Shown here one piece after another: positions 23,959 to 51,985 of a DNA stretch of 64,000 nt. Within the stretch, counting starts at the first letter, position 1; the number at the start of each line of letters is the position of its first letter. The stretch comes from Phascolomyces articulosus. Taxonomy: Eukaryota; Mucoromycota; Mucoromycetes; Mucorales; Lichtheimiaceae. The position numbers and the translations under genes were made by a program. The notes under the pieces were generated by a model, which saw only the letters and a list, made by a program, of their open reading frames with translations, did not search any database and was not told the DNA's origin. The stretch is taken from contig JAIXMP010000023.1 in NCBI GenBank assembly GCA_025677815.1, positions 678,846-742,845 of the forward strand, read 5' to 3'.

Positions 23959-24145
23959 TTATCTCCTCCTACTTCTACCACTACTAATCAACAATCAAGC
24001 GACCATCAGGACCGCTCACTCGGCAAACGTAATGACCGCTTACTCGTTCATGAGGATGAATCCCAGTCTGTTTTTATCACTACTGAAAGATCGCCATTGC
24101 GTACGCCCATGAAACGTATGCAATCATACATGAATGATCCAGGGG
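23959..24145 (+). other. Orphan coding-like fragment (Ser/Pro/Thr-rich)
   Basis: One open frame reads LSPPTSTTTNQQSSDHQDRS and ends near SYMNDPG before a GTGCGT donor-like site. It is low-complexity and polar, and may be the N-terminal exon of the next transposase or part of a gene cut by the MULE. No function is recognised. Confidence 0.35.
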
Positions 24146-24304
24146 TGCGTGTTTTTTTATGTAAAGTCGGATTTCTTAGATCTTCAATTTCAGTAATTTT
24201 TGCAAAGGAAAAGCAGTCAACTTTTGCATAAAAATATAAAATAAAAATCGTTAAGCTTTCTAGATAAAGTCAATCACTGTCAACCTTAATATTTATCTTA
24301 AAAC

Positions 24305-26345
24305 ATGTCGTTCAAAGATTTTCCTGATGGTGACATACGAGAAGAAATTAATCTTGTCCTTAAAAAAGGAGAAAATGGTAAAAATGACGAGTATGTTTAT
24401 GATACGTTCGTTGGGTGGCAATGTCAGCAGATCAGCGACAAAAGCGAAGGTGTAAACAGGACATTACAAAAAATGTTTAGGTGGTGTCAAATTTATGACA
24501 TGCAACACATGGATTCGACCAAAGTCTTCCCAGAAGCGTATTGATCAACAAATAGTACAAAACTGTGCCACATGTAACACTTCTTCGTTGGAACATGTTG
24601 GTTGTGATTGTAGAATTACTATATATATTCGTGGAAGTAAAGGTAATGTATAATTTGTGTATAATCTAAATAATGGGTGTAGGTTTATGTGTGAAAGAGA
24701 GTAGGCCGAGAAATAGTTGTAAGAGAGAGCATGTAAGATGAATATTATGTAGATACACAAGTTATTGATTATATAGTATTGCGCTGGAATTATAACAGGA
24801 GATTTAGTACATAGAGGAACACATACACACGGCAGATTCGTTCCGCTTCATTTCACCATGAAGACATTGGATGAAGTTGAACAGCGTATATTGGAATTTC
24901 CTCAAGAAAAGCCGCAAGCATTAAAGATTGGAACAAGTCATTCTCGTGTACAGATGCCAGCAAGACCGATGAATTTAATCGACGAGAACCTACAAAATCT
25001 TGGCACTATCAAGAGGCTTCAACGCAATTATCTCATCAAAAACGATAAACTGCCATCAGCACAACCAGCATTTGAACGGGCACATATGGAATTAGCTGAT
25101 CTGACGATGGAATTTCCTGGATATTTGCAAGATGCAAATATCATGCCTGGTCAAATGTGCTTTACATTTTGTGCACCTGGTATTGCAGGAAATGCTGATT
25201 TCAAAAAGCACCCAATGCTCACCGATGTAACTTATGATTGTTTCACGAAAGGATATTATTTATGTACTACTAATATTTTTTTCGAAGAATTGAATAAGTT
25301 TGCAGTGGTCTTTCAAGGTGTTCTGGATGGATTATCTACGTCTCATTTTAAATCATATTTTCTCTCTTTTTTCAAGACTTTTGATTTTGTCTTTGGACTT
25401 AATGGCGATACTATTGATATGAATTTCTCAGGCCTGGTAAGTTTATATTTCTGGTTGGTATATTTTGGATATTTAGAAGGGGTAGAATGAATAGAGTGGG
25501 GACGACATAACTGTATATCAAACCCATGGGCTTTGGACGAGTGTTATTACCAGTGAGTATAGTACATATACAAATTTGTATCGATGGATTGGAAAACTAT
25601 ACGCATGCAACTAGTGCATAGGGAGCAGAGATGGATGGTGTATATAGAAAATATATTATCATAAATTAGCAAAAAGTATTACAAATAAATGGATGAAACT
25701 ATTTATCTATCGACTTGTTATTGTTATGTTAATTAGACCTGTGTTAGTGATAGACCTGTGTTAGTGATGCTCGTATGATGAACTAATTTAAAGATAAAAT
25801 TGTATAGGTCATGGACTTCTCGCAAGCACAACGTGAAGGATTTTTGATGGCATATAGAGAAGCATTTCCTTACATCAACATATCTCCCGAGTCATTGTTA
25901 AAAGGATGTTATCATCACTTTAAACAAAGTGTGCAAAGAATCATTAGCAATCATGCCATTGTACCAGCAGGTAGTGATGTTGATTTTCGTGATCTAACTA
26001 ATGCTATGTACAATGCTGAATCTGAAAAAGCATATGACCGGACTGTGAGAAACATCCGGGATGATTATCCAAATGCAAAGAAATGGCTTGATTGGTGGAC
26101 TAGAGATGAAATTGCTGGGATGATATTCAAATGTAAGAGAGGCTTACAGATGAACTGCAGAATCATCCAACTCGTACAACCAATGGTTGTGAAAGCTTCA
26201 ATCGAGACCTGTATCGAATCGTCCAACGAAAAAAACCAATGATTGAAACCCTTTATCAGATATTTACTTATCTTCGTTCTTCGGAAAAAGATTTGGAATT
26301 TGTTGGAAGAGGGGGAAGAGCAGATTATAACAGAAAAAAAACAAG
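24305..26345 (+). pseudogene. Second MULE-type DDE transposase (OTU-associated element), broken
   Basis: Segments at 24305-24541, 24858-25437 and 25808-26345 form one broken transposase. It opens MSFKDFPDGDIREE. The DDE core shows the first Asp in MLTDVTYDCFTKGYYLC (about 25220), the second Asp in MDFSQAQREGF (25811) with a following GCYHHFKQSVQRI helix (the family's C/H position), and a late NGCESFNRDL segment (about 26187) that holds a candidate Glu. An intron (about 25436-25807) is plausible between NFSGL and VMDFSQAQ. A one-base frameshift near 26145 separates KCKRG from the NHPTRTTNGCESFN frame. A stop at 24542 and the gap to 24858 suggest further damage or an intron. Family assignment is by the spacing of D, D, C/H and E. 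A K/R-rich stretch and an OTU domain follow. Confidence 0.65.
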
Positions 26346-26595
26346 GTATATAACCATTAGGTTGTAAACTGTTTCCACATGTATATGTGAGGACACCCGT
26401 ATCAATTCAGTTCCTCCTTATATCTACATAATATAGTAAACCGCGCAAGATAACAGAGTTTGTAAATGACGGTCGCGCTCCAGACACAACAAAAACACTA
26501 CTGGATCTTGGTGACGTATACATCTATATACCGACTTATAAGCATATGAGTCTTATACAAGCCAAAGGCTCTAAGAGGATATACATTGTATTAAT

Positions 26596-26868
26596 TTGGG
26601 TATGTACGTACTAGTAGGTTTTGAAAAGAAGATAGAAAAGGTTAAGATGAAGAAGAAGGAAGAAGAAAAGAAGAAGGACGAAAAAAAAGACGAAGAAAAA
26701 AAAACAATGCAACAGAAGAAAGGCGTAGAAGAGCTGAAAAGCATGCAGAGCGGATCAAGGAAAACAAGCGCAAGCTCAAGCAAGACATGTCAGAAGAAGA
26801 TAGGAAGAAAAGACGGCTTTGTAATGATGGCCCTGATAGGTGAGGCGACACGGCTATGAAAGATAATA
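26596..26868 (+). pseudogene. Lys/Arg-rich linker between transposase and OTU domain
   Basis: An extremely Lys/Glu/Arg-rich segment (KMKKKEEEKKKDEKKDEEKK, then in another frame KHAERIKENKRKLKQDM and EEDRKKRRL). It could form a charged helix and a nuclear localisation signal. It ends at a donor-like site (ACT|GTAAGTG, 26870) whose acceptor (ATATAG, 26923) leads into the OTU exon. Two frames are used, so a frameshift is likely. Confidence 0.45.
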
Positions 26869-26929
26869 CTGTAAGTGTTTATTTAATGTTACTAATACAA
26901 AAAAATTATGCGAACAATATAGGTGGAGG

Positions 26930-27568
26930 ATGAATAGTATCCAGTTATTCAGCCATTTAAAACTTTCAACGGTATCCACTGAACTTCTTATGAAATGTGG
27001 ATTGTATTCGGATGATGTACATGGGATATATAATCCTCGCTCCGACGGTAACTGTGGTTGGAGAGCTGCATCTGCGATTTTGAATGGTGATGAAGATCAT
27101 TATCAAGTTGTAAAAATGTGCATGCTCGAAACCATGCGAAACGAAAAAGACCTCTTTATACATTTATTTACTCGAGGCGAATATCATCGTATCATTGAAA
27201 TGCTTGACCAGCCTACTGGACCTGTTTCTTTTGAAAATTGGTTTGAAGTCATAGACTGTCCTCGCATTTTAGCCCATACATACAACCAACCTGTGGTTTT
27301 GTATAGTATCAATGGTAGTGAAGTTGGTGGTACTACATTTTTACCATTCAAAAAACCTGAATGTGGTTCTGATGGCTATATGATTGATGTGTCGCCTATA
27401 ATCTTGGTCTTACAAGGTGCCCACATTAAATTGATAGTACTCAAAGATAATGCAGTAGATAGAGTTACGTTCCCAAAGTTATTTCCTGGTTATGCAAATC
27501 TCATTTTAAACAACCAACTCCCTTCTTCGTGGTTAAATTTGTACCAATCTAGATGCCAGGCAGATTAA
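26930..27568 (+). CDS. OTU-family cysteine protease ORF carried by the transposon
   Basis: An open frame of 212 residues. The OTU signature is SDGNCGWRAAS (Asp and nucleophile Cys of the D-G-N-C-x-x-R box, about residues 39-48), preceded by DDVHGIYNP. A conserved-looking segment RILAHTYNQPVVLYS (about 110-124) and a late GAHIKLIVL segment (about 166-174) sit where OTU proteins place the catalytic His. OTU proteases cleave ubiquitin-like linkages; in transposons they occur with MULE-type transposases. Whether this is a separate gene or the C-terminus of a fusion with the upstream transposase is unclear, because the splice at 26870/26923 would join them. The frame itself is intact, unlike the transposase. 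Confidence 0.7.
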   Translation: MNSIQLFSHLKLSTVSTELLMKCGLYSDDVHGIYNPRSDGNCGWRAASAILNGDEDHYQVVKMCMLETMRNEKDLFIHLFTRGEYHRIIEMLDQPTGPVSFENWFEVIDCPRILAHTYNQPVVLYSINGSEVGGTTFLPFKKPECGSDGYMIDVSPIILVLQGAHIKLIVLKDNAVDRVTFPKLFPGYANLILNNQLPSSWLNLYQSRCQAD

Positions 27569-27890
27569 CTTGCTATGCACCATCTTTTTTCTTTTTCCTT
27601 ATATTATGTAATAGAATCAATAGATTTATAGTTATCAATTTTTACTTATAAAAAAACATAAATATGATTTCAGTGAATATAGAAATGATGACGTTTGATA
27701 GGAAGCATGGCAGGTGAGTAATATATTTATTTTTGGTAAGTCAACCTTCATTTGGTTGTTTTTATGTAAAGAGACATGGAGAACAAAAAAGATATGTGAG
27801 TGCAGCCACAGTACTTTTTTTTTAGCATAACCATGAATAAAGCTAAGTCGGCATTATCTATTTTTTACTTAAAAACCCGTAAATCAATAA
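27569..27890. other. 3' flank of the OTU ORF, no gene seen
   Basis: AT-rich; it leads straight into the repeat array at 27893. Confidence 0.5.
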
Positions 27891-27892
27891 AA

Positions 27893-28097
27893 GTACCTAA
27901 AAAATAATTGTGATGTTGCATAAAAAAAAACTGCATGCCCAAGGTACATAAAAAAAAGTACATAAAAAAAAACTTTGAGAAATATTTTATAATACAAATA
28001 TACAAGCGGAGTCTGTGGTTAAATAAATCTGTGGCTTGATACATAAAAAATATGGAAAAGTACATAAAAAATCGCCAATTGTACATAAAAAAAAACT
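27893..28097. repeat. Array of seven GTACATAAAAAA-type motifs
   Basis: Copies start near 27893, 27917, 27944, 27958, 28040, 28060 and 28081, with core (G)(T/A)ACATAAAAAA and variable A-tails; all are in the same direction. Spacing is irregular. Such subterminal motif clusters often bind a transposase near a DNA-transposon end; which element owns it is not clear. Confidence 0.65.
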
Positions 28098-28102
28098 GTA
28101 CC

Positions 28103-29327
28103 CAGTTGATAACGGTACGCAAACAATTATAAATGATGTTTTTTTTGTGGATTGTTATGCGCTTGCATTGGAATTTGAAGCTGCTGCAAAAGAAAAGTTT
28201 GCCAAAGCAGAAGAATATAATGGGTTAGCAAATTCTTATCAAGGTAAAGCTCAAAAAAGCCGAGCCAAGCCATCAATGTTTGAAGCAGAGGGTTTAATTT
28301 TAAAGGCAAAAGCTATGAAGGAACGGGCAAGCATGAAGGAAAAAGAAAAGAACCCGTCATATACCCCTTTGCCTGAAAAAGAAACATTCAGTCTATGGAT
28401 CATCCAGTATAAGCTGAAGAACAGTATCCACAACATCCTGAAGGTCACCAAGTGAAAGAACATCAAGAACAGGAATCAAATCCTATGGATCATGATGCTT
28501 CTGTTAAAAACAAAAAGTGTGATAATGGTAATAATACTGATGATGATAATGATAATGACGATAAAAAAATGAAAACGAGCATTTCTGAACCAGAGTTCCG
28601 AAAAGATTGTTTGATAAGGCAGTGGCTATAGCTACACCGGAAACTGGTGAAGATGTGAACATTAATATGTTACTTGAACGATTATTTCTTTTGAGAGATA
28701 ATAATGAAGCTCAGTGCTTGTATGATAAGATCTGTAGAAAATGTAATGATCTTCATGGAAATTATAATAATGATGAGAACGTTGATAAAAAATTTGTAGT
28801 TCTGAACCAGACACCCGTAAGGTATTGATTGATACTGCACTTGAAGCAGTTTCCTCTACCAAAAGAGGAGATGTTCCTGAAATTGATAATTTAATAATTT
28901 CATTGATGGATCCTACTGTTAGTGATGGTGATTTTGAATATCTGTTCAACGAAATCATGGGCATTTGTGCGGGACCACAGTTCAATATCTCTAAAGAAAC
29001 GTTCACGCTTCCCCCAAGATTATACCATAACTCCGGTAATGATGCTCTCCATATTACATTGCTTGAACGTGTGGTGAAAAATATTCCTGAAGGATGTTAT
29101 AATGATGAGAGCCTTTCGAAAAACGCTCTGTGACTAGTGATAATAATAATAACAATAATAATGTTGATCATGGTTATGACTCTAGATCATCTTCAACAAA
29201 TCCAAAGGATGACGATAGTGATGATATGGATGATGATCATCATAAAGCTAAGCCCAAACCCATTCCTACTCCTGCCCAAGCAGAAGAAACATCGGTGAAA
29301 CACAGAAAGGTTGGTTAGAATAAGCTA
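28103..29327 (+). pseudogene. Broken unrecognised gene, possibly the 5' part of the Fanzor gene cut off by the Plavaka insertion
   Basis: Coding-like segments on plus in several frames: 28127-28455 (coiled, Ala/Lys/Glu-rich), 28607-28825, 28825-29130 and 29130-29318 (Asn/Asp-rich, ending VKHRKVG). Stops and frameshifts separate them. Codon use and acidic, low-complexity character resemble the start of the ORF at 36405 on the far side of the Plavaka element. No domain is recognised. The link to Fanzor rests only on position and composition. Confidence 0.35.
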
Positions 29328-32118: not shown

Positions 32119-35100
32119 ATGCCTAAATGTCCATACTCTGCATGTAGGAATCGTAGATTTCGAACTGAAAATGCAGTGAATGCCCATTTAAAATCACATA
32201 CCGAGCCATTACCCTTTACTTCATTTATTGTCCCGAATCAAACTAATGCATGTAGACAACAAGACGGAATTGAGACAGCCCATTTCGACGAACAGAATGA
32301 GCACGACAATGTGAGTCTTTTTATTTCTAAATTTATAGTTTTTTATAGTCAGCTAACGTGAAAAGTAAAGGGTGATTTTGTATACGACATGAGCGATGAT
32401 GATCATTCACTTTTTATAGAACAAAATAGTAGTAGTGACAAGAACGGTCTGGATAAAGGTAAGTATATTTTAGCTGATGACGATTTATTCTATTCTAATA
32501 AACTAAATAATGTAAATTAGCCACGATTATATCTAAAGTAGATATGCAGGATAGCATCAATGACAAGAGCAGTACTGGAAGTGGTCTAAAGCTGAATGAT
32601 ATCGAACTACGTTTTGCTCGAGCTTCTTTATCGGCGGGGCTGTCCAAAGCCAAGCATACTGAGTAAGCTTAATGTCAATAAACAACAGTATCGAGAGATG
32701 GATAGCTTACAAAAAAATATAGATTTGCAAATATTTTACAGGATGCTGCTGATTTGGTCCATAACACAGGTAATTCTTTGAAGATATCAAACCATACTCT
32801 CGATGGTCTCTTTACAAAAATTGATATAGAATGTGAAAGTGAATCAGTGGTAAGGAACGCAAATTTAATTTGATTGTTGTTGGGCTTAATTATTATTATA
32901 TCAAAAAACTAATCATCTCCATTATTAGCCTTTTTGTGAGCACGAGTTTGATATATCTGCAGTTCATGGCATACCTATCGATTGTATTCAACATTTTCGT
33001 GAATCGTATGGAACCATTAAAATCGTCTATCGCGATATCAAGAAACTCTGTGAGCTTTTGTTTAGTTATGAAGATATTTTGGAAAGATACAATATTATTA
33101 CCTGAAATTTGGAAAAGAGATGGTAAGCGGGTGGTTCAAGATTTGTTCACAGCGAAATGGTGGCATGAACTACAAGTAAGTATAAGTCTGTTTTTGGTAT
33201 AATTTTTACAACATCCTAAAAGAACTCCTATCCTAATAAAATTTTCTACGATAGGCTAAACTCCCTGTTGGGGCTATAGTATTGGCTTTGCTTTTGTCAT
33301 CCGATGAAACAGTAATAAGCGGTAATAACAGAGCCTTTGCTCATCCACTATATATTAAACTTGGTAATGTTTCATTTTATACGAAAGATAAAAAGATCTT
33401 TCACTATATTTATTTACATATTTTTGGCTGGCTAATAAAAAACATCTTATCGTTCACCAGGGAACACACCGAAAGAAATCCGAAACAAAGGAACAAATCG
33501 TGCCAGTCGTGTATTAGCATATTTTCCTATCTTGCACTGTCCAAACAACAATAATAAACTGAGATTATGGTGGTCAAGTATCAAGTGCTGTATTATTCAT
33601 TATTGTTTACGGATAATTCTTGCACCATTTGCCAATAGGCCTCCCTACAGGTACTATAAACTATGATTTTCGTAATATCATTAAGGTGGCACTAACACGG
33701 TTTCTTGAATCTTTAGTACCATTCCAATGAAAGGACCTTACAACAAAATTTATCAAGTAGTACCGGCTTTAGCTGCTTATATTGCGGATCTACCAGAACA
33801 GTAAGCAATCATAATATAACTTGTCAATATGGATAACAATGTACTAACAAATTCTATAATTCTTTAGACGATTAATGGCTGGAGTGAAAAGTGGCATGTC
33901 AATGTATTCATGTCCTCGTTGTTGGACCCTTACCACAAAGTTCCATTTACCCTTTTATAACACAAAGCTACGAAAAAAAGGCACCATGGAAAAAATCTGT
34001 TAATGCGGATTGAATCTTATCAAAAATGAAAAGAATGGCTTAGCAAAAAGCCTTGCAAAAAAATATTCAGCACATTTCGTGGATGTGAGTTTGATTAGTT
34101 TATGCACGTTTTTTTTATGTTTGTTACTTATTTTACTTATTTAATGTTTATGTTATTTTAGAATGCATTTGATTCAGTTCCTCATTTTTCAATATATGAT
34201 TCTCTACTGGTGGTCACTCTTCATCAGATCGGCGGTTGTTATACACATCTTTTAGAATGCGTGCAGAGAAAGCTAACTGATGATGAAATAGATGAAATTA
34301 ATTCAAGGTAGAGGGTAGATCGCGGTTGTTATGATATATTTTACCCAGCGTTTACAATTTTTTTTAATATTATAGAGCGAAGGTTTTATCACATTTTCGA
34401 GGACAAAGAACCTTTCCCTCAAATTATATGCTATCTAGTATAACGAATCCTACTTACTTGGAATTAAACCACCACCGCGCAGTAAGTGGTGCCTATATAC
34501 ATTATACATGAAGACCGATCAAGAAACTGATGAATAATTACAACTTTATGTCTTATAGATATTATTGTCTCTGATTCACGATAAAGTATCACCTCAAATT
34601 GTGCTCTGCTTGCGTCACTTTATTGACTTTGTATATCAAGCCACGTCGAAGGAGCACTCTGCTGATACAATACAGCAAATGCAGGAATCTCTCATATTGT
34701 ATAATAAGTATAGTCCGGCCATTGCTTTAAAATCTAAGGTATATCTATTTATTTTCTATTTATCATCTTTTGTACATATTTTACCCAGCCATTTTCCCAT
34801 GAAGTTAACATCAAGTATTTAGTCGAAAATGCGCTTTCCAAAAAACCATTCACTCTGGAAATACGCCAATGATATCGAAATGCGTGGCGTTGTATCGTCT
34901 TACTCCACTGAAGCTTCTGAAAATCAACATAAACAAGATGCTAAGGAACCTGTTAATAGGACAAACTTCAATAGAACAGTTTATACTGGCCAGGTAATAT
35001 TTATTTTTCGCTCTTATACTACAGTTTAGCATAAAACAATAAGTATACCAATAAATGATAACATCTGCTATTGAGTAATGGTGTACCAACATTGATCTTT

Positions 35101-36077
35101 GCTCATTTTTCTTTACGTAATAATTGAGAATCATGAATATTGATCAATTTCTATAATATATTAATAATGGTAATTCAACTTTAGATAGGAAAATTTAAAA
35201 CTCGTTTTGATGCCCTATTTGATACGTACCCTTTGCACCAAAAGAATGTGAACAGAAAAAAGGTATATGACGATCCAGCTTCCTTACATTCAACAAGAAT
35301 CCTGAGTGCACCATTAAACAAGGGAAGAGCCATTCCTATTGCAACAATACAAAACCAAGAAAAATTATTTAAAGCGCTAGGAATAAAAATTCGTGAATAT
35401 CTTGATACAGAAATTATGGAACGGATTCACAGACGACGCGTGAAAAATTATCCTAAGCTTACAAGTAATTCAGTGAGTGCTTTAGTTATAATGATACGAA
35501 TCTCTTATCAGCATAAAACTAATATATTTTAAAGATCAACGTTTATACTGTATTAAAACTTCAAAAAAGGTCGGCTGATGATGGAGAGCCTTATACAGAG
35601 CAATTTCGAGCTAGCAGCAACTACAGAAATAGGGAATGGAGAGATTTTGCACAGATTGAAGGGGGATACTATGGTCGCTTGCTATTATTTTTCGAAATGA
35701 AATTCATCAAAAGAGACGAGGTTAAAAATGACAAGACTGAAATGAACCTGCAATTGTGTTTAATCGAAACTTATACCCCAGTGAAGGACAGAAGGAATCT
35801 TCATATACCACATATAACCGGAATGGAAGTATTGGAAACATTACCTGGTCGAATACACGACAAAGTAAAGGTTATTCCTATTGAGAAAATAATAAGACAA
35901 GTCCATATTGTTCCTGAATTTTCTACTGACAAAGATAAATATGGATATTATGATCAATATTTGCTGAACCATGATATTAACGCATATAGCTGGTCTGAAA
36001 ACGAAGGTGTGCTCTTAAATCCAGATGAGAACCTCATAACATGGAATGATGTGTTTAATAGTGAAACTTTAGGCTAA
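32119..36077 (+). pseudogene. Plavaka transposase, broken
   Basis: The start at 32119 gives a C2H2 finger (CPYSAC...HLKSH). Later segments match Plavaka transposases: FDISAVHGIPIDCIQHF (32945-32995), VQDLFTAKWWHELQ, PVGAIVLALLLSSDETV (33262-33310) and HPLYIKLGN, then ASRVLAYFPILHCP (33505-33545), SCPRCWTLTTKFH (33912-33950), SVPHFSIYDSLLVV with HQIGGCYTHLLE (34169-34257), and a long C-terminus to 36077. Many short introns interrupt it. A second copy at the right edge of the window shows where this one is damaged: an extra A near 33076 (GAT-A-TTTTGG) shifts the frame, and a TAA near 33998 interrupts KIC-CGLNL. Another frame change lies near 32640-32700. The transposase uses an RNase-H-fold DDE core; the exact catalytic residues were not assigned. 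Confidence 0.75.
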
Positions 36078-36389: not shown

Positions 36390-39300
36390 ACATTTCATCG
36401 ATGAATGATAAAGGAAAGTATGAAGGAGTTGGCAGATAATTTGGATAGTATACCACGACACCTAACTGTTACTCCAGATGAAATGAATCTTGGTAATCAT
36501 AGTGACGATGAATTCTTTGATTCTTTTACTGATGAATTAGCTGCTACTGCTGATTATGAAATGGAAGATCGTAATCGAACAGAAGATTCACATCATAAAG
36601 AAGCTCCACAGGTTCCTGAATCATCACCACCTCTTGACATTGAAAGTCTCAACCTCTCTGAAGATTTGGTCGAGTCATTTGGCGTTGAAAGAATCTCAGT
36701 TATTAAAAGATATATGAACGCTTGGACTAAAGCACAATCTGGAAATGAAGTATTTGAACAATCTTCTGAACCTAGTGAAAATATAAATCATATTAACCAA
36801 CTCATTCCTCGAGGTGTTTTAAATGAATATTATGATGAACATGGAAATATGCATTTAAATCCTATTTTGAAAATGATTCCTATATCCGCAAGAGACTCTA
36901 GCACTGAAATTGAACTTTTATGGAGTATACTTGAAAAAGTTTTGATCGAACGTGAAAAAGAAGCTGCTAGTAAACTTTTACTTAAGAAAAGAAGAATTAA
37001 GAAAGTTCAGTTGGATAATAAAACTAACAAAAAAGAAACAAAAAAGCAAAAGCGAGACAAAGAAAAGAAAGAACGTGGAAGTGGCCGAAAAGGAAAAGTC
37101 GCTGATATTACAAAAAATGACATTAAAATACAATGCCAATATTGCGTACAAAGAGGAGTGCGTGATCCTCTTCGACCACATGCAAACAGAAAAAGTAAAC
37201 TTTGTTCTTCTCCTATAGAACAAAAGAAAGAAAAGATGCAAAAAGCCCTTGGATCCAATAGATGTACGTTTACACGCAAGATTGGTCTTCGCAGTGTTAT
37301 TAAAACAGATCATCTTGAAAAAAAATCCGAAAAAGAAAAGTATATCGATGATTTCCAAAATATAGTTACACAAGATGTTGAAAAATGGCGAGAGATTGCT
37401 ATTAAATCGTTGCTTTTTGCAAATTACTTTATTCTTCGACGAATAAACGATAAAAAAGAAGGTTGCCTTGAAGGAGAAGCAGTACTGCAGATTTTCTTTG
37501 ATCAAAAATTCTTTACAGCCATTTATCAGTTGTTGATTGGTAAAAGTATCACCAATAAGACTGCAGCTACGTTACCAAGAGAACAAATAGTTGCATAATT
37601 TACGAATTTCGTGAATACATTTCCCAATGTACGTGTTGAAGGTGTAGCATTTGCTACCACAATGGGGTACCTTGCTAGACAATCAGCAAGTATTTTTCAA
37701 AACTCTGTTACAGAAGGTTTTGAAAAAGCTGCCTTGAGATTCTTCAAGGTCATACTGAGACGAATTGTTAATCCAGAGGAACAAGGTCAAGAATCAAAAA
37801 CTACTAATCCTAATTTGGATGTTAATACGGAACAACCTGCTGAACAAGCTACTTAAGCTGCAGGTGTTATTACTGATCAAATTGTATCTGATAATGAAAA
37901 TCTAAACATCCTTTCTAAATATGTTGCTCCTCTTGCAAAATATTGCGATGAAGTATTTATCATGGGTGAAAATACGGGTGGTGAAGAACTACTAGAATGG
38001 CCAAAAGCTGTTCCAAACCATACGTCACTTTAATTGTATGTTGAATTTTTGGTTAATTTTTTTGTTGATATTGATATCCCAGTACCGATCACAGAGGAAA
38101 ATCTTTCAAGATACCCTAACAAATATCTTCTTGTTATGCAAAGTATGCTGGAAGAAATTGAGAAATTTAACACTGAACAGCGAGCACAAGGAGGTGTTCC
38201 TCAAGTTGAGGTCAATAGTCGGTGGTCTCAGTCTGTGATCACTAGTTTATCAGGGTCTGAAGCGCTTAATAAGCGTAGTCGAAGTCGATTTGCATCAAAA
38301 ATCACTAAGTCTGTTAATAACAAAGACACACAATCAGATACGACTGTCAATGTACCAAGTTCTTTATCATCAGAATCAGCAAAGCACTTGGCAGACATTA
38401 TTACACAAGCACGTGAACAAATCATAAACTCGATTCAATATCTTCAAGAAGAAGAAGGAAATCGAACTGTTTCCATTGATGATTGCTTTGTACCGGAATT
38501 GAGTACATTTGCACAGTTGCAACGACTTTTTTCATTGATTCCATTATACACTTTCAAGCGACAATATGTAACAATCGATCCAGGTTGTTTGAAATTTTTG
38601 ATTCGACGTACCGAAGAAATCAAGAAAAACATTGATGCAAGAGGAAGTGTAGATATCAATGATATCTACAAGAAACTCTTTGGTTTTAAAAAGCTAGTCT
38701 TTGACTTTGAAGCCTCTTTACGTTTTCATTCCAATACCAACAATCATACGGATGAAGATGGTAGATCACCTGAAATATTTTCTTATATTAACAAGACCGT
38801 TGGACACGCAATTGACTTTGTTATCGAGCGAAAAGTCGAAGAAATTGATATTCTCCCTCAGTTGGAAGTATGCGATTTTACTAATCATGAACTTCAACGA
38901 TTCTTCCATGTTTGGGGTGCAGATCCTGGTCTCACGCATGTCTACGTTGCTTGCGATGGTTTTGGTGCTGATCCATATCAAGAACGACGTTTCTCGGTTG
39001 CTGAATACTACACCATCATGGGTGACAATAAAACCGTGGCAAAATTACGCCGTATGAAAACAGTACCTATTACAGGAACAGATCAAACAATAGAACAGAT
39101 TGAAAATGCATTACCAAGCCATTGAACAGTAAGCAGCATTTTATTTGCAGAATATGTAACTGCGGTTTTGAATTCATTAACCACGCTTACAAACTTTTAT
39201 GATGGGAATACAACATCGCTTCGTTTCCTCAACTATCGTGGTCGACAGCGCGCATGTGCTGAAATGATCAATATTCTTATCGATGGTGGTAAGAAATATA

Positions 39301-40038
39301 ATCGTCATCCTATCCATGTTAAACGACGTAAGTTTAATCGTTCTGCAACCAGTTTTAAAGGACGTCGATATGTTCAACGTCGCATGACTGGAAAAGTCAA
39401 AGGACAAGCTATTTGTTTGAATCGAACAAAGCAAAAGAAAGGCATGCCTAAATGTATTGTCAAAAAGAAGGATGCAAAATGGAGAAAGGCGCCGCACAAG
39501 CAAGGTAACAAACTTCCTTTGGTTATTCTTGGTAGTGCATCATTTGGCAGCCAAAAAGGTAAAACTCTTTTGGCAGAGTTATTACGAGCACTTCTTTTAG
39601 AAGCACAAAGAGATGGCAAATTAGCATTTGTAAATATGTGGGAGCATAATACATCTAAGGTAAGAAAATTTTTATTTATTGTTTGCTTATTTATTTTTAG
39701 CTTATTAATGTTTTTCTTCTTTTTAGATTTGTTCGAAATGCCGATTAAATGCCACAAAACTTGCTTAAATCAACACTCCTGATGGTAAAGTGAAATTATG
39801 GAAGGTATTATATTGTGAAAGCTGTGGTCTTATGATTCAACGTGATCGCAATGCAGCCCGAAACATGCTTTATATCGGTACAGAGATGACCGATAGTCGT
39901 GATCGTCCATTAGTCTTCTGCACTCGGAGGCAACAAGAGGAAGCTGCTTCTGGAAATGCAGAAGAAGGTCAGCGACAACAACCATCTGATGATGAAGAAG
40001 ATATGATAGAAGATAATAGAATGGATGAAGGAGAGTAA
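36390..40038 (+). pseudogene. Fanzor (eukaryotic TnpB-like RNA-guided nuclease), inactivated by nonsense codons
   Basis: One continuous frame of about 1190 codons from 36405, with one 67-bp intron (39660-39726), is interrupted only by single stops: TAA 37596, TAA 37854, TAA 38031, TGA 39123 and TAA 39766; a TGA also sits at 36402 just upstream. The N-terminus is acidic, then very Lys-rich, with a Cys motif (CQYCVQRG...KLCSS, about 37131-37215). The RuvC core is clear: RuvC-I GADPGLTHVYVA (Asp codon 38922), RuvC-II region LPLVILGSASFG (about 39508), the WEHNTSKIC segment with Glu at 39642, a split zinc ribbon (ICSKC just after the intron; YCESCG about 39811-39828) and RuvC-III QRDRNAARNML (Asp codon 39844). 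This order is that of TnpB/Fanzor proteins. The C-terminus is acidic (DDEEDMIEDN). As it stands it cannot make full-length protein. Confidence 0.85.
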
Positions 40039-40445
40039 AAGATTTTTACTTTGGAAGAACAAATATTATTAAGGAATATATACAAGTCGGATAGGAACAT
40101 GCCTGTTGAAAATGCATTTACAACCCAAAAGTCGTGGTAGGGTGGAAGGGTTTGGGATTGGGACCTGAACAAGAATGTAACTAAAGAGAAAATAAAAAAG
40201 ATTTTGTCAGCAAACACACATTCAACAACACAATACAACACATGCACACACACACACACACATGCATCATATACGAAAAATATTTTACATATGGTACATA
40301 CAGCATCACATACAACACATGGCACACATCAAAAATAGCAAGCAAAAAAAGGAAAAAAAACGCTACAGCAAAAAGAAAAACAACATCTATAAAACCTCTA
40401 TTTTCTCTTTGGGTACCGTACACGAGTATAGAAACAGTATTCATC
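39960..40445 (+). ncRNA. Fanzor 3' region, candidate guide-RNA (fRNA/omegaRNA) locus, copy A
   Basis: In TnpB and Fanzor loci the guide RNA scaffold overlaps or follows the 3' end of the nuclease gene and runs to the element's right end. Here the ORF tail and the next roughly 400 bases recur as a degenerate tandem copy at 40467-41000. Shared blocks include GTTGAAAATGCATT, AAAAGTCG followed by a G-rich stretch, CAATACAACACA and GGGTACCG near the end. That supports a functional unit but not its transcription. Ends, fold and guide are not determined. Confidence 0.4.
40246..40261. repeat. (CA)n dinucleotide tract
   Basis: A short CA run in copy A; the corresponding place in copy B has a CT run (40821-40850). 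Confidence 0.8.
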
Positions 40446-40466
40446 TCAATATACTTTGCAAGAAGT

Positions 40467-40818
40467 AAAAGAGGATCAACAAAATCAACTGCAACAACAG
40501 AAATGATCTGATGATGAAGATTGAATGGTTAAGAGAGGATAAAAATGTTACTTTGGGAGATTCCAGTTTGAAGAAAGACAGGTATCATAGCGACGTGTAA
40601 TAATGGTGGGAGTTATCATTATAACATATGAGGATATGTTGTTGCGCGATTAGGAATAGCACGTCGCGAGCACGTTCGGTTGAAAATGCATTGACGACTG
40701 AAAAGTCGGGGAAGGATGGTTGGCTTTTTGGGGATGAAGTTGGATCCAAATGTATGCAGCCTCAAAGGGAAATAGATACAATTTGTCACTTATTCATATA
40801 CAATACAACACACACATG

Positions 40819-41000: not shown

Positions 41001-44000
41001 CTAATTTTTATTTGTATTTTTTAGGCACCGGATCAATTGCCACATTTGTCCTCCTGCCGCGAAGAATCTGTCATTTTCAGTTGGGATCGAGAGTTAAATT
41101 ATACTATATTATATACAACAACAACAACAAATTATATCCTATGTTATCGGTTACATACTCAAACAACATGATTATCCTTCAAGATCCAAATCCAAACAAA
41201 CAAAACATCTCTTTTTGATCCCATCAACTCTTTGGAACTATCATCATCACTTTGCAATTATTTATTTTTCAAAATAATCACCAATTAAACTATCAAGATA
41301 CTAACGTAAAAAAAGGAATGGTTATGTGGATATGGCATTTTCTTAACTAGATTGTTATTATGGAACAATTTTTATTAATTTACTGGTACCTTTTTCTTTT
41401 AATAGTTGTAAACAAGAGAAAAAAGCAAATTTTGCTGGATCTTATTAATTCTGACAGGAGGTAAGATGACAACTATTGGTTTATTTTTATGATTATCAAG
41501 TGTAAAAATAATGGGTTCATGTGTTTCTGATATATGCGTGAAAAGGACTATATTTCAGTGTACATATTCTATTATACCCAAAAAGTTTGATATCAACAAT
41601 TCAATATATATTTATATCGTCATCTGTTATCATATATACTCCAAAAACATTATCAACAACAAAACATCTATATCCATATCTCAAATACCATAACAACACA
41701 AACCGGGTGCCATCAAGAATCTATTCTCTTATTTACTGCTATTCAACTTGACACGTAACACAATGAAGATGTATCACCACCATGGCGATTGAACTCTTTG
41801 TTTCATGACTACAACATATCCTAAAAGAAAAACAAGTTTGGTATCAGCTTTTTACATACACTGAATTTCAAGTCGGTTATCATCATCTATGCGTAGCACA
41901 TACTTTATGTCGTTATTATCATTTTTATAATATAGCAAATCTGGCGTCCACCAAATTCATTTCAACACACGATTATTCAATCCATCATCATTTATCATAA
42001 AAGCGGATTATCCCAACAAATCTATACGTTTTGGTGCTACGCAAACAATCTATTCAAATTCAAAACGACTGTTGTTACATATCTGGCGCGTATAACAAAC
42101 ATATATATCGTCAAGACCCTTTATTTTATTCAAGGCGAATGATCGATCGATAACCGGCTTGTTCTACATTCAGCTCTTGTTTCATGCAAAAAGATACCTG
42201 CAAATGGAATCTCCCAACCACAGTGACACAAATTCACTCCCAGCTGTTGCACTTGTGTTACACTCCCACCTTTTGCATGAATCGAGTGTTGGTTGTATTA
42301 TTGTTGCAAATCGATCCGGGTGAATGGCATGAATGGACAAAGACAACATATTATTATAACTACTTTATGTTAAAACGAATCGAGGTATATAAAAAAAATT
42401 TGATTTAAATGGAATATATTAATTATGGATTAAAACGATGAGAAATAGTAAACTAATAAGCTAAATTTTTATTATATATCATTAGAAGCATCTTTTCTTT
42501 CAAATCAGTTTTATATATACTAAAAAAAATACACATATATTCTCTATTATATACATAGTTTATTCTTCCCTCAAGTTTACATCGGATGTGGTAATAGTAA
42601 ATAAGAGCAACGGATGAAACTATGAAAGATTTTTGGAGATCTTTTTTATTATTATTTTCCCAATGAATCCTTTTCTTTTTCCCTTTACAAATCTGCATTC
42701 GTCTTCCAACTTTTACACATACACACACAATCTTCCATTATCATCCCTATGAAATTATTGCACAATTTTTTTCTTGGATGTCATTTATTATCTACTCTTT
42801 TCCATTGAGTACTTTTGGTATTGGTATATTTGGATCATGTCAAGATACAAATCATGGCTCTTCAAGACTCAACATTTCTATCATGGTCTTGATTTTACTA
42901 TTCGGTTCTATTTCCGTTATTCTACAAGTCTTTTTTTTTGATCCACCGCTTTCAATATTTTGTTTCGAACCATGTTTATCCATTCCATCATCAATTTTTC
43001 CTATGCTGTAGGAAACCCTAATTTATATCTATCATCAAGTCAACCAACAAATCCTTCTTGAAAAATTTTATCCACTATACAAATCTACATATTAAACTCA
43101 ACGACAAATTCATCCATATTCTATACATTGTGTATTTTGATGAACAAACGAGATTTAATACCATATTCAAATCGTAAGTCATGAATAAGGTTAAAAAAGT
43201 GTTTTTATACATGAGTTTGATGGATATCCAATAAAATCATACGTTAATAATATCCTTTTATATATAACTAGTTAAAGATCCACATCTACAATACAATGTC
43301 AATACGTACCAGCAATAATGATTTCATTTAACTGAAGCTCATTCATTATACTCAACGACACATTCTCTCAATGCATCCAATATTATAAACGGCTTAATCA
43401 ACAAATGATACACCACTCACACATGCTTCATAATATATATATATATATTTAAAAGGATTATTCCCCATTATTATCTCCCATCTTCCATATGTAATCATTT
43501 CTCCTATTTCCTTAAAATTCTTTGTAGTTCTCTCAGCTGTCTTATACTATTATCCATTCTTCCTTTTTTAATAACATGAATATCATTGGTTCTTCTCTTT
43601 TTTATAAAAACGCATCATTTTAAATAAACACCACTCAGCCACTTATTTTTCTTTTAAAAGAAGAAGGCATTCATTATTAAACGGATAGAATATGCTTTTA
43701 TATGTTATTATAAAAAAAATTGTAAAAAAGAGTTTGTAGAAAAAGGATAAGATGAAAGGGAGATGACTATCTTGTATTTTTCTTTTGGCTATTTGGTTTT
43801 TCTTGTGGTTTTTTTTACTTCTTGCTTTTCTTGTTTTTCTTGTTGTTTTTCTTGTTGTTTACGCTTATAATTATTATTCATGCGTTGGTACGACCCCCTT
43901 CCTATAAAAGTAGAAATAATATATATACTACATGAATAAACTAAGAATAGTTTGTTGTTGCTTCCATTATCATCGCTAATATAACATTTATACTGTGTCG

Positions 44001-46680
44001 GTTTCTTCTATGATTATTAAAGGGCTTTTTCTGATTGTTGACGTGTACCACCTTCGTCATTTTGAGGTTATTAATATTGATTGTCGACATGTTGATATTT
44101 GAAAGAAAGAAAGGAAGAAAGAAAGAGAAAAAGGACTGATCCATGATTTTAAATTCTACCAGGCACTCTGTCAATCATTACTACTTTTTTTTAAGAAATT
44201 TCATGCAAGTAGAGAGTAATTCCCAATTTTGTAAACACGCGACTCGTGTTATTGACGCGCGTCCTTTTCTTTTTTTCTACTTCAAAAAACACACTTTTAA
44301 TCATTAGGCCATCATACATAACCGCAAAACGTAAGTTATATTATAAATTAAAAGAAACTTGATGTTATCAAAGTAATACATGATGGAAGGGATATTCTTT
44401 ATTATAAGTTTGAGAGTTATAAAGAGAATCTTTCTTAAATCTATTTAGATGGTTTCGCTCGTCCAATAAAGAATCTATTGTTTGATACGTAATAAGTTTC
44501 TTTCTGCTTATGACAAGGTAAGCAAGAATAGGATGCTGGTAATAAATAGATATTTCTTTCTTCCCTATTGATAACGAAAGATAGGTATAGTTTTATTAGG
44601 GAAGGAGTGGCGATAAATACTCTATTATGTTTGTTTTTCTCTTTGACCCCTTCAATTTTTATATTCGCGTTTTTTTTCTACAAGATCCATTCCACTCATG
44701 ATCGTTGTTCTTTTATGGTATTTTTTTTTCTTCAAATGACATGACCATTAATTCAAGCAAGATCAAACAACTCTATATTATTAAATCTTTTTAAAGGTAT
44801 TCATGATTCATCCAATTGTCAAGATCATTGTTTCTTTTTGGTAGTAGCACATGCTTTTCACTGGTAAGCAATAATTTCTGTTGCTTTATCTTGTTCTGAT
44901 CACTATAAATTCTTCTCACAAATGATAAAGTCAATCTACTCAGCTTGATTCTGGTTTCTTCTCCTTCAGATAAAAAAGCACACGCTTTGGGTAAGTTTGT
45001 ACATTCCTTTGTTGCAATATTTTCTTCTTTCCCTTTAATAAAAAATACTTTTCATTGTATTCAACAAATTCACTGGTCAATAAATGATTATCAAATATAT
45101 AGATGTGGAACTTCTGCAATGAATTTTCTTGATGCTTATGGTTAATGTCTTTTTGTTCTTGGTTTGTATAATATTCGTTTGGATGTGGGGATTAAATGTA
45201 GACACTCTGTTTTGTTTTTACTCATCCATCATGCTACACTGGATCATTCTCTCCTCTTTGTTTTGTTTTATATAAAATCTATATATAGATTTTAATGGCA
45301 TGATGGATTAAGGATAAAAAGCAGAATAAATGTTGGTTTCGATTGACAGATTTTTTTCCTTTGACCCAGGTGCAGGTCAATAAAGGTACGTTTATTCTTG
45401 TTTTTATTTGGTTGAACAAGTGAGAGGATTCAGGAAGGGAGCTTTCCGATATGCTTCATTAAATTATCTTGTTAATAGTAGAAAAGATAAAAATGTATCT
45501 GGTAAGGACCTGTCATGTTTATTTGTGTGTGATGGATGAATAGATGAAACTATTAGGCATATTGCACTTAATATTCTTTTTTATATTTTTATTAGTCTTC
45601 TCGAGGCGCTCTTTTTTGTCTGGTACAGTTAAACTAAAGTGTCGCTTCTTGCTTTGGTTCATCTTCTTTCCTTGTTCTGTTTTTACAACAGTTCATCTGC
45701 ATATCTTACCTTTGTGCGTGATATCACCGCCCAGTTTCTTTCTCGTGTTGTATGTAAGACGTGATTGCGCATCACGCCACTATTCCGATGTTTGGTTCTG
45801 TTGAATAGTGTGCCATCTTGCGTGTGCCATATTTTTGGCCGTAATGTTGGCCTATTCTTTAGCTTAGTCATGGAAAGAAGTGTTCTACTGCTTTTTGTGT
45901 GTTCCCATTTCTTTTTCTCTGTTTCGTGTAAGTTGATTTGTTTTTCACTCTTATCATTGCCATTTATTATTTTGCAATAGTCTCATATGATATTATTTTT
46001 TTCTATTTGCTTTTATTAGGCCCAAGGTTAATTGTAGTATGTGGGAGGTAGACATGCTTAAGAATGGCCCCTGTCGCTCGTGAGGATCCTATGATTGCAC
46101 CCAGACATTGATTATTGTTCAAGAAACGTTTCCCCGTAATAAAAACGGGTTGAGGATTCTGGGTAAGCAAAAAGAGATCCACTGACAACAACCTGCAAAC
46201 TTTTAATTGATTGGCTAACTGAATATTATTTTAAATTACCGCTCAGGTGCATAACCTGGAAGAAACTTTACAATTTGACCAAATTTCGGATTTTGAATTT
46301 TGAATTTTCTATAGAGGAGTCCAAAATTCCTGTACAAGGACAGAAGTATATTGCTGGTTGAATGTGGATTGGATTGCTTAAGAATCGTCACGAATAATAT
46401 ATTAGACCATAATCCGTATATTTGTATTTATCAATTTGATCCCCATCTTCCATCCTCATATCATTTATATATTATCTAATCTATTTGGCCACCATAATCG
46501 AGATTCATTTTTCATGATGAATATTTCCCCCTTAGTGTTTTCTCTTAGTTGATCACTCCTACTACCAACAATCCTTCTCTTGTTACTCTACATTTCGCAA
46601 CCCCCATAATTTATTTTGAATGCGTTATATTTTAGAATGACTAGTAACTAAGAAATCAAACAATAAATGTTTTTTATAAG
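41001..46680. other. 5.7-kb gene desert
   Basis: AT-rich sequence without a supportable gene. The ORFs at 44945 and 45544 (+) are hydrophobic readings of T-rich DNA without conserved motif. It contains a dispersed repeat copy (46080-46170) and the 3' flank of the kinase gene. Confidence 0.6.
46080..46170. repeat. Dispersed repeat, copy 2
   Basis: Partner of 13435-13520 (shared TTATTGTTCAAGAAA, GTAATAAAA, ATTCTGGGTA). Its left flank holds CCTGTCGCTCG (46064), an 11-mer also present at 50470. Confidence 0.5.
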
Positions 46681-49470: not shown

Positions 49471-50741
49471 TATTATTCTCGACAAATGATGTGATTTGAA
49501 GGATTTTTAGAAAGTGTAAAATGAAAGAGTGAGAGTGACGAGATTGGAAGATGACGGAATAGTAGAGACGTAACAGGACGCTAGAATTCGGTTGGACAAA
49601 CTCTAAAAAAAAAAAAGAGCGGGATTTATTGTCTCTACTATGTGCTCCACTACTTACAATCCATAATACAACTTCCGTAAGTTTCAAAGCTTTTTACTGA
49701 ATTTAACCACTTATATTGACTGATGTCTACAAACGGATAAAAGGAACTTAGAGATATATTAGTATCTTTATTAAAATTGCACGAAGGAATGCTACCAAGC
49801 TTTTCCATTGCTTCATGGTGACAAACGAAAAAAGAGTTATACTCTTGTTACAAAGTGTTACAAGACAATCATTATTATATAATAATTAAGATAAAGAAAC
49901 CATTCTAACTTGCCTTCCGATCTATTATATATGATTTAAGAACTGATTGGAGCTCTCAAATACTTTATTTCACATTGATTTAACTTTTACATGTCTATTG
50001 CAAGTATTCCCTGAAGTTTTTTATAGATCTTGTATAATAAACGATCCTGTTAGCTCACGGTAAAAAGCGATGAAAATTACCAAACACATATTTATTTTGA
50101 TGGAAAAAATACCGTTTAATTGATAATAGAGCACTGGAGTTTCATACACGATTAGCAAACAATATAGATAATACAATAATACTGCTGTTGAATTATCATA
50201 CCCGCGCACTTTAGAAAAAAAATATTCAGAACATACTCAAATCTTTATATGTGCAAAATATCGCATATTCGAGTTGAAATTTTTTTGAACATGTAAATAT
50301 TTTATGAATTTAGAAATATGTTTGAATATTTTTTTTCTAAGGTGTGTAAGAATCTCTGTATTAGAAAAATAGTAGCAGTTTTTTATACAAATGGTATTAG
50401 TTGCCATATTCTGTCCTTCAGTGAAACATATAATAGAGCATGAGTTCTAGAATAGACCGACATAAATGCCTGTCGCTCGCACCACTATAAAACACCTCCA
50501 GGTTATCACCGTTGGCACCTGAGATTTTTACCATATTTGGATGCTAGGATAAACTCATTTGAATGACCAAATCATGATTACAGCCTCACGCCATCTGGTT
50601 TGCAATCCTCCGTGGGATGCGCCGCGGTGCACCGCCGGTTTTTATATGATACGCCTAGTCCTCCCCCCTTTATTTTTCTTCCTCTTTTTAGCTTTTATTT
50701 TTCTTTTAATACTTTTAACTCATCAATAATTATTTTTTTCA
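49471..50741. other. Intergenic, no gene seen
   Basis: Contains the kinase promoter and, at about 50460-50660, a locally GC-richer stretch with no ORF of note. A T/C-rich leader (50640-50740) precedes the ATG at 50742. Confidence 0.55.
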
Positions 50742-51985
50742 ATGAATACTCAATCTACTACTCAAAATCAAAAGCCTAATGGTGTTTGAAAGGTTTCGCG
50801 TTGGAACGCATTAATTTTTTTGGTGTTTAAAGGAACGTCTGAAGAGAAAACTTGTGTGTAGAATATTTAATATGATACGTTATATTATTATGAAGGAGCA
50901 AAATTTCATTATGTAAAATTATATTGTAATAGGTTGGAATGGAAAAATTGATATGGTAGATTCTGTAGCTGGTCCAACCATGAGTGAACTTGCAGATGCC
51001 TATCGCGATATGACCAATGAAGATATGGAAGCGCTTAAGCAAAAAGCGTTGGCCATGGATCAAGAAAAACACGAAACTGTTGAAAAAGACCACGAACGTA
51101 TACCAACTGCACAGAATCTATGACGTTCTACTCGTTCACTTTTAACGAGAATGGCAGATCAATTAGGTTGGAACGTCACACTTATCATCTCTTCACCGAG
51201 CAAAAACGATGGTTTGGATGTAACTAAGACATTGACAACTCCTGGTATGTATAATAAAACAATAATGAAATAACAAATCTAACCATACCAATAGACGTTG
51301 CTTTTAAAGCGAATATGACAGGAGGATTGAACAAAAGTTTGAAGACAGACGCCACGGTATATATTGTAAAATTGTAATTTTGAATGTATAAAAAAATGGA
51401 CGATCTAACGGTTACGTATTGATTTCTATAGAAATTTGTAACAAAGGATGTATGATGATTTTGTGTTTATGGATTATGAATCTATATAACCGGAGCTTCT
51501 ACATTAATAATAATTTATTTCATGCAACTTTCTTTAGTGAAGCGAGGTCCTTCATTATCAAGAGAATCCATTAAGAAAAAGTCAAAGCAGAGGGATGCCC
51601 TTCTTAGTCGCTATTGTGGTATGTATTTTGGTTATGGATTGTTATATCGTATTGTTTGATGTAACATTTTGGTAAAATAGCCGCGGCGGATAATGACGAT
51701 ATACAAATGATTGATTGGAGTAATTTTTCTCGGGTTGAGGTGGATGGAAAGGTTGTTTATCGTCATTCGAAAAGAAGTGTTGAGATTCATGGATATGATT
51801 TTGGGACCCTTACAACATTGAATCTATCAAACATTAGAGGTTTTGAGAGGGAAAAATTGGTTAAATATGTAGAATTTAAACATATTAGTTTGAATTCTAG
51901 CAGCAATGTTAGTGCTGATGCTGGAGAGAGAAATGCAACTAATGATGGTGAAAGTAATGGTACAAACGATCCAAATACTGATTAA
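50742..51985 (+). pseudogene. HMG-box-like lineage-specific gene, broken
   Basis: The ATG at 50742 follows a pyrimidine-rich leader. The reading goes MNTQSTTQNQKPNGV, stop (TGA), KVSRWNA; then, after a probable intron or damage to about 50945, GPTMSELADAYRDMTNEDME with KALAMDQEKHETVEKDHE, a second TGA near 51122, RSTRSLLTRMADQ. Further exons follow plausible introns (51246-51294; 51620-51680): SLSRESIKKKSKQRD and a final part to 51985. The WNA...helix...YRDMT pattern resembles an HMG-box-like DNA-binding fold seen in fungal proteins of unknown role. Both stops read TGA where Arg would fit. Family assignment is weak. Confidence 0.45.

Follow-up and report, generated by a model that had tools for sequence, protein, structure and literature searches.

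A probable Fanzor pseudogene in a dispersed DNA element of Phascolomyces articulosus

The window, a 64,000-nucleotide stretch of Phascolomyces articulosus DNA (C27:678846-742845 in the 47.4-Mb, 110-contig assembly that we searched), very probably contains the pseudogene of a Fanzor, a eukaryotic homologue of TnpB that is borne by transposons and related to CRISPR nucleases, residing in a dispersed DNA element without clear TIRs. This reading of the sequence is based on homology at the C-terminus, the catalytic residues and their spacing, an intron-like interruption, the lesions in the gene, two broken relatives in the same genome, a neutral-looking divergence and a carrier present in many copies. 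Judged by homology, the intact protein would have been an RNA-guided RuvC nuclease cutting DNA that matches a guide RNA encoded by its own element, and such cleavage would have helped the carrier element to persist. Elsewhere in the window, an exon of a NOG1-type GTPase gene (14311-14799) and the remnant of a retrotransposon polymerase with RVT_1 and RNase H domains (59708-60700) are present. Both, like the predicted intron and the size of the genome, indicate a eukaryote, and the published distribution of comparable Fanzor families would suit an early-diverging fungus. The features of the Fanzor gene proper are as follows:

36405..39659, + strand: Fanzor frame up to the intron, with RuvC-I and the displaced glutamate; four in-frame stops (37596, 37854, 38031 and 39123)
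38922..38924, + strand: codon of the RuvC-I aspartate of GADPG, residue 840 of the spliced read-through
39642..39644, + strand: codon of the displaced RuvC-II glutamate (WEHNTSK), residue 1080, six residues before the first CxxC; the first ribbon cysteine is residue 1087
39660..39726, + strand: predicted 67-nt GT-AG intron (gtaaga ... tttttag) at the WEHNTSK / ICSKC boundary
39727..40038, + strand: last exon, encoding the zinc ribbon and RuvC-III (QRDRNAARNM); interrupted in frame by a stop at 39766 and terminated at 40036
39844..39846, + strand: codon of the RuvC-III aspartate (RD), residue 1125, with five residues between the last ribbon cysteine and RD

The motifs GADPGLTHV, WEHNTSK, ICSKC, YCESCG and QRDRNAARNM, listed in this order by a preceding sequence-only reading of the locus, were all found in the sequence as given there. 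The single frame of about 1190 codons described in that reading proved to be two frames joined by the predicted intron, behind which the final 103 codons lie in a different frame; once spliced, the read-through from ATG 36405 to 40038 does comprise 1188 codons. It contains exactly five internal stops, as had been counted, with both TAA and TGA represented. When 500 first-order Markov sequences with the composition of the region were generated, the best of the three forward frames contained at least 55 stops in every one of them (mean 73), and none had an open stretch of more than 208 codons, compared with up to 397 codons at the Fanzor locus. The predicted intron is supported by the score for the zinc ribbon family PF07282 (TNB / OrfB), which rises from 21.7 bits for the last piece alone, unspliced and below the Pfam cut-off of 26.3 bits, to 40.3 bits (E = 3.5e-10) for the spliced C-terminus. 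The zinc-ribbon profile match proposed as a check on the earlier reading was thus obtained above the cut-off.

The spacing of the catalytic residues conforms to that of published Fanzors. According to excerpts from PMC3627910, these proteins follow the motif D-X(125,275)-[TS][TS]-XX-C4-X(5,50)-RD; in the window protein, 242 residues separate D840 from TS, within the published range of 125 to 275, and five residues lie between the last ribbon cysteine and RD. In the portions of PMC10711439 drawn on here, Fanzors are set apart from typical TnpBs by a DPG motif and by a glutamate placed six residues before the first CxxC. Both features are present (GADPG; E1080 ahead of C1087), which bears out the suggestion that the RuvC-II glutamate had been displaced into WEHNTSK beside the zinc ribbon. 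Two regular expressions for the Fanzor motif both matched the spliced protein, and neither matched in any of 60 Markov windows; the expression for the D-to-RD motif had a ribbon spacing of our own choosing that is looser than the published one, and its first match began at D 815. The six unspliced frames of the window were not matched by either expression, so that the motif becomes recognizable only through splicing. The expression would equally accept another DPG, at residue 725, and the preference for GADPG is a judgement based on its surroundings. From its length, we infer that the gene belongs to Fanzor1 rather than Fanzor2.

Searches of sequence and structure databases gave matches of graded strength. 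With the C-terminal sequence alone as query, phmmer against the PDB (E up to 10) returned a TnpB-like chain, L79, as its sole match (E 0.0031), and in NCBIfam the spliced C-terminus matched only IS607_TnpB, guided_TnpB and IS200_TnpB, all far below cut-off. The zinc-ribbon end matched two transposase families and one family of unknown function in PHROGs. With a shorter C-terminal query, one independent database relative carrying a TNB domain was recovered among 724 candidates (E 6.9e-9). It is identical to the window C-terminus in 59 of 204 aligned columns and has ILIDGGKKYNR and the ending RD-x-NAARNML in common with it. Region 800-1188 of the complete frame, used as query, yielded no hit among 4318 candidates at E <= 0.001, and the nine stretches of viral contigs that matched a pattern included no relative. 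The RuvC-I piece alone did not match any family above cut-off in Pfam or NCBIfam, which we counted against the Fanzor reading; three beta-mannanase chains that this piece matched in the PDB were taken as chance.

A four-row profile was built from the window protein, P0001 and the C23 and C33 proteins, half of its rows thus coming from other Fanzor-like genes of the same genome. It drew 48 PDB chains at E <= 1. At the top stood TranC (E 1.8e-6) and Cas12g (4.3e-5), above the Fanzor chains SpuFz1 (2.1e-4), GtFz1 (2.1e-4) and PpFz1 (8.8e-4), and this ranking was likewise counted against the Fanzor reading. TnpB and Cas12f/m chains followed further down; prion chains appearing at E 0.044 and above were regarded as chance matches. 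The three Fanzors, whose structures have been solved (PMC11423790, PMC10432273, both in part), were reached by this profile and not by single-sequence phmmer at E up to 10. A single-sequence structure model of the window protein was unusable, with a mean pLDDT of 36, another point on the negative side. On balance, the fossil Fanzor proposed by the sequence-only reading was upheld by the PF07282 score above cut-off, by DPG and the displaced glutamate as characterized in the cited portions of PMC10711439, and by the independent database relative.

The gene once extended further upstream. Three places in the genome carry it according to three protein searches, i.e., the window and the contigs C29 and C100, and comparison of these copies revealed the following features:

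23964..24142, + strand: probable further upstream remnant, 81% identical to C29:540450-540604
24143..28103, + strand: 4.0-kb stretch, probably an insertion; C29, the one other copy available here, has 154 bases instead
28104..29285, + strand: remnant of a more upstream coding part of this gene, with changes of frame; identity 88% with C29:539154-540295 and 74-76% with C100
29286..36402, + strand: insertion of 7.1 kb that separates the upstream remnant from the Fanzor frame and is present in neither C29 nor C100

In both C29 and C100, the match to 28104..29285 continues directly at 36403/36410, and in C29 the upstream frame runs, as judged by eye, across this junction into the Fanzor frame. Because the equivalents of 29285 and 36403 are adjacent in both copies and the C29 frame crosses the junction, ATG 36405 is not the ancestral start of the gene. 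The ends of the 7.1-kb insertion bear an imperfect 11-nt inverted CATCGRTGAAA (by eye), and positions 33000-36052 within it are 72% identical to a stretch of C17. In C29, the equivalent of 23964..24142 lies 154 bases from the next matching piece and the frame continues through these bases (by eye); C100 gave no match to 23964..24142. A weak OTU-protease-like frame (26930-27568; 20.7 bits, cut-off 23.3) is located inside the 4.0-kb stretch. With several hundred residues added upstream, the ancestral protein was perhaps 1,500-1,700 residues long, as we infer from the alignments. The lesions exceed the five stops, since three or more changes of frame were seen by eye within the upstream part (28104-29285). 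The window copy is dead: it has five stops, shifts frame upstream and is broken up by stretches of about 7.1 and 4.0 kb.

Neither of the other copies is intact. The C29 copy is 88.5% identical over 36403-38370 and lacks 38371-40776, hence also the RuvC-I, ribbon and RuvC-III motifs. It also changes frame in the upstream part. Its protein matches lie in more than one frame; one match of 351 residues (54% identity, in part out of frame) contains 13 stops and another of 181 residues (75% identity) contains seven, and TAA, TAG and TGA all occur within the C29 matches, which are partly out of frame. In C100, the Fanzor gene exists as fragments. For 632 codons compared between the window and C29, a simple count gave 34 synonymous and 133 nonsynonymous differences (dS 0.090, dN 0.095, dN/dS 1.06), values that refer to the part common to C29 only, the RuvC half being present as a single copy in the genome. 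Divergence between the two sequences thus looks like neutral drift. None of the three protein searches uncovered an open copy of this Fanzor family in the genome, so that the stop-free copies which the earlier reading had suggested looking for were not found within the window's own family.

The gene is associated with a dispersed element, and the window contains the following features on the 3' side of the stop codon:

40105..40153, + strand: noncoding 49-nt segment, repeated at 40679-40727, 574 nt apart
43935..46257, + strand: right part of the carrier up to and including its right end (ending in CCGCTCAGGTGCATAACCT), dispersed in the genome

For the last 1.25 kb before 46300, at least 78 aligned pieces were collected from 40 scored candidates, the window counted. 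When 11 right ends were compared, nine ended in CATAACCT, the exceptions being L042 and C100. About 4 kb to the right of this right end, a left-end-like segment (50507-50964) forms the start of another member of the carrier family; 30 pieces from 26 candidates, again with the window counted, correspond to it. Pieces of both end segments occur in the same orientation and about 2.7 to 7.3 kb apart on C25, C56, C2, C13, C16, C74, C78 and C100. On C100, the left-end-like segment, the upstream part, the Fanzor fragments and the right end follow each other in this order within 3.8 kb, and the gene copies on C27, C29 and C100 all continue to the carrier right end. A dispersed right end, a left-end-like segment and the conserved order in C100 all speak for carriage by a mobile element. 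The left end of the window's own carrier copy was not found, nor was an inverted copy of the carrier right end elsewhere within the window; all that the two carrier ends have in common is the 9-nt inverted motif GCACCTGAG (by eye), and a transposase was not identified among the subset of frames searched. On C30, the carrier 3' part recurs with an identity of 87-94%, depending on the piece; this match begins at 40344, past the gene. Position 40344 was considered as an element end on this account, but since the C30 DNA beyond it looks like unrelated reverse-strand coding sequence (by eye), the C30 copy is tentatively read as truncated. The 49-nt segment occurs once each also in C30 and C16.

No sign of a guide RNA emerged from the 3' region. 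The alignment of the 11 right ends (mean column identity 78%; two are a near-identical pair on C27; L027, L035, L037, L042 and C100 were left out) gave a consensus fold with a covariation term of +0.33 and double changes in three of 38 pairs, which does not support a guide RNA. The window right end folded no better than its shuffles (z 0.37, with 126 of 200 as good), and the same applied to the stretch after the Fanzor stop containing the 49-nt repeat (z 1.42, 187 of 200). Rfam returned no match at gathering score. As right end, post-stop stretch and consensus were all without support, the absence of a guide-RNA signal was counted against the Fanzor reading.

Three other explanations of the locus have to be weighed against a Fanzor pseudogene in a dispersed element. 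According to the sequence-only reading, the gene was otherwise collinear and therefore died recently, and a living sister copy could exist in the same genome. Five stops only in 1188 codons and the retention of the catalytic residues would fit a recent death, and the closely similar carrier 3' part on C30 would fit a living sister. However, frameshifts and interruptions affect the upstream coding part and dN/dS relative to C29 is about 1, so the argument from collinearity is not supported. The match on C30 starts only after the gene, and what the protein searches did return is C29, devoid of the RuvC part and burdened with stops and frame changes, and the fragments on C100. We therefore consider this scenario improbable. 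Even less can be said for a functional gene whose stops are read through or recoded, although the frame stays collinear across them over all 1188 codons: TAA and TGA occur together inside the window gene, joined by TAG in the partly out-of-frame C29 matches, and recoding would not remedy the upstream frame changes and the 7.1-kb insertion. Mixed stop types, frame changes and this insertion led us to reject an alternative code or read-through, and we regard a working gene of this kind as scarcely credible.

The gene could also have been a domesticated host gene, built from a Fanzor and later lost, instead of transposon cargo. Its occurrence in as few as three places and its long upstream extension are in accordance with this idea. 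On the other hand, the copies on C27, C29 and C100 all reach the carrier right end, and purifying selection was not seen between the window and C29, which makes domestication very unlikely, if somewhat less far-fetched than recoding. The identification as a dead Fanzor carried by a dispersed element stands; neither a recent death nor a living sister copy within its family is upheld.

The suggestion that active relatives exist in the same genome is not supported for the window family, for which only the broken C29 and C100 copies were found, and may hold for other families with stop-free nuclease frames. A genome search with PF07282 led to four places, of which C23, C45 and the window lie above cut-off and C33 just under. 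A third Fanzor-like gene (L048; G000:C23:1327913-1329007) has an open stretch of 376 codons, the DPG motif, the displaced glutamate and a PF07282 score of 33.6 bits; its family includes a partial copy on C25 that is 91% identical and has one stop, as well as decayed pieces on C45. A second Fanzor-like family comprises two stop-free frames that are 90% identical (L051, G000:C33:524351-525295, and G000:C31:255067-255996), found among 29 matching pieces of which many match weakly or contain stops. The open stretch on C33 spans 323 codons, and the C33 protein has a PF07282 score of 23.0 bits, below the cut-off of 26.3. In the four-row alignment, the window C-terminus shows 21% identity with the C23 protein and 20% with the C33 protein. 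By their sequences, the Fanzors of other families on C23, C33 and C31 may be intact.

Fanzor1 families were described from Mucor, Rhizopus and Phycomyces in 2013 (PMC3627910, in the parts used here). Compared by description only, the Fanzor1 proteins of Mucor circinelloides, Rhizopus oryzae and Phycomyces blakesleeanus share with the window gene the D...[TS][TS]xx-C4 ribbon-RD spacing and mobile carriage. As excerpted from that source, MCi-2 and MCi-5 of M. circinelloides are, like the window carrier, without recognizable TIRs, and the MCi-2 copies have a common 3' part, a differing 5' end and no TIRs, an arrangement similar to that of the window carrier. The window family differs from these Fanzor1 families in that all three of its places are broken, a target-site duplication or transposase was not identified and the ancestral frame was seemingly much longer. 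With prokaryotic TnpB, including IS607 TnpB, the gene shares the TNB zinc ribbon, RuvC-III and weak NCBIfam matches; it is set apart by the displaced glutamate, DPG, the predicted intron, its location in a eukaryotic genome and NCBIfam scores far under the cut-offs.

Fanzors are already known from such genomes, and the locus is fairly ordinary except for its apparent length. Most Fz1 proteins have 600-700 residues (PMC11423790, in part) and some Fanzors about 800, the upper length given in the consulted portions of PMC10711439; the window frame has 1188 codons, to which the upstream remnants have to be added. It is conceivable, though we put this forward tentatively and hold it for somewhat less probable than its opposite, that the gene descends from an intact giant Fanzor, perhaps 1,500-1,700 residues in length and extended upstream by several hundred residues, in a carrier family without clear TIRs, most copies of which have no nuclease gene and were presumably mobilized in trans. 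If true, its length would be about twice the upper figure of about 800 residues in the cited text of PMC10711439. The picture of what Fanzors are is unchanged by the locus. What it contributes is a decayed and apparently long Fanzor lineage, tied to a dispersed carrier, in a genome with other open-frame Fanzor families; should the length prove ancestral, Fanzors would cover a wider span of sizes and the role of the extra part would become a question.
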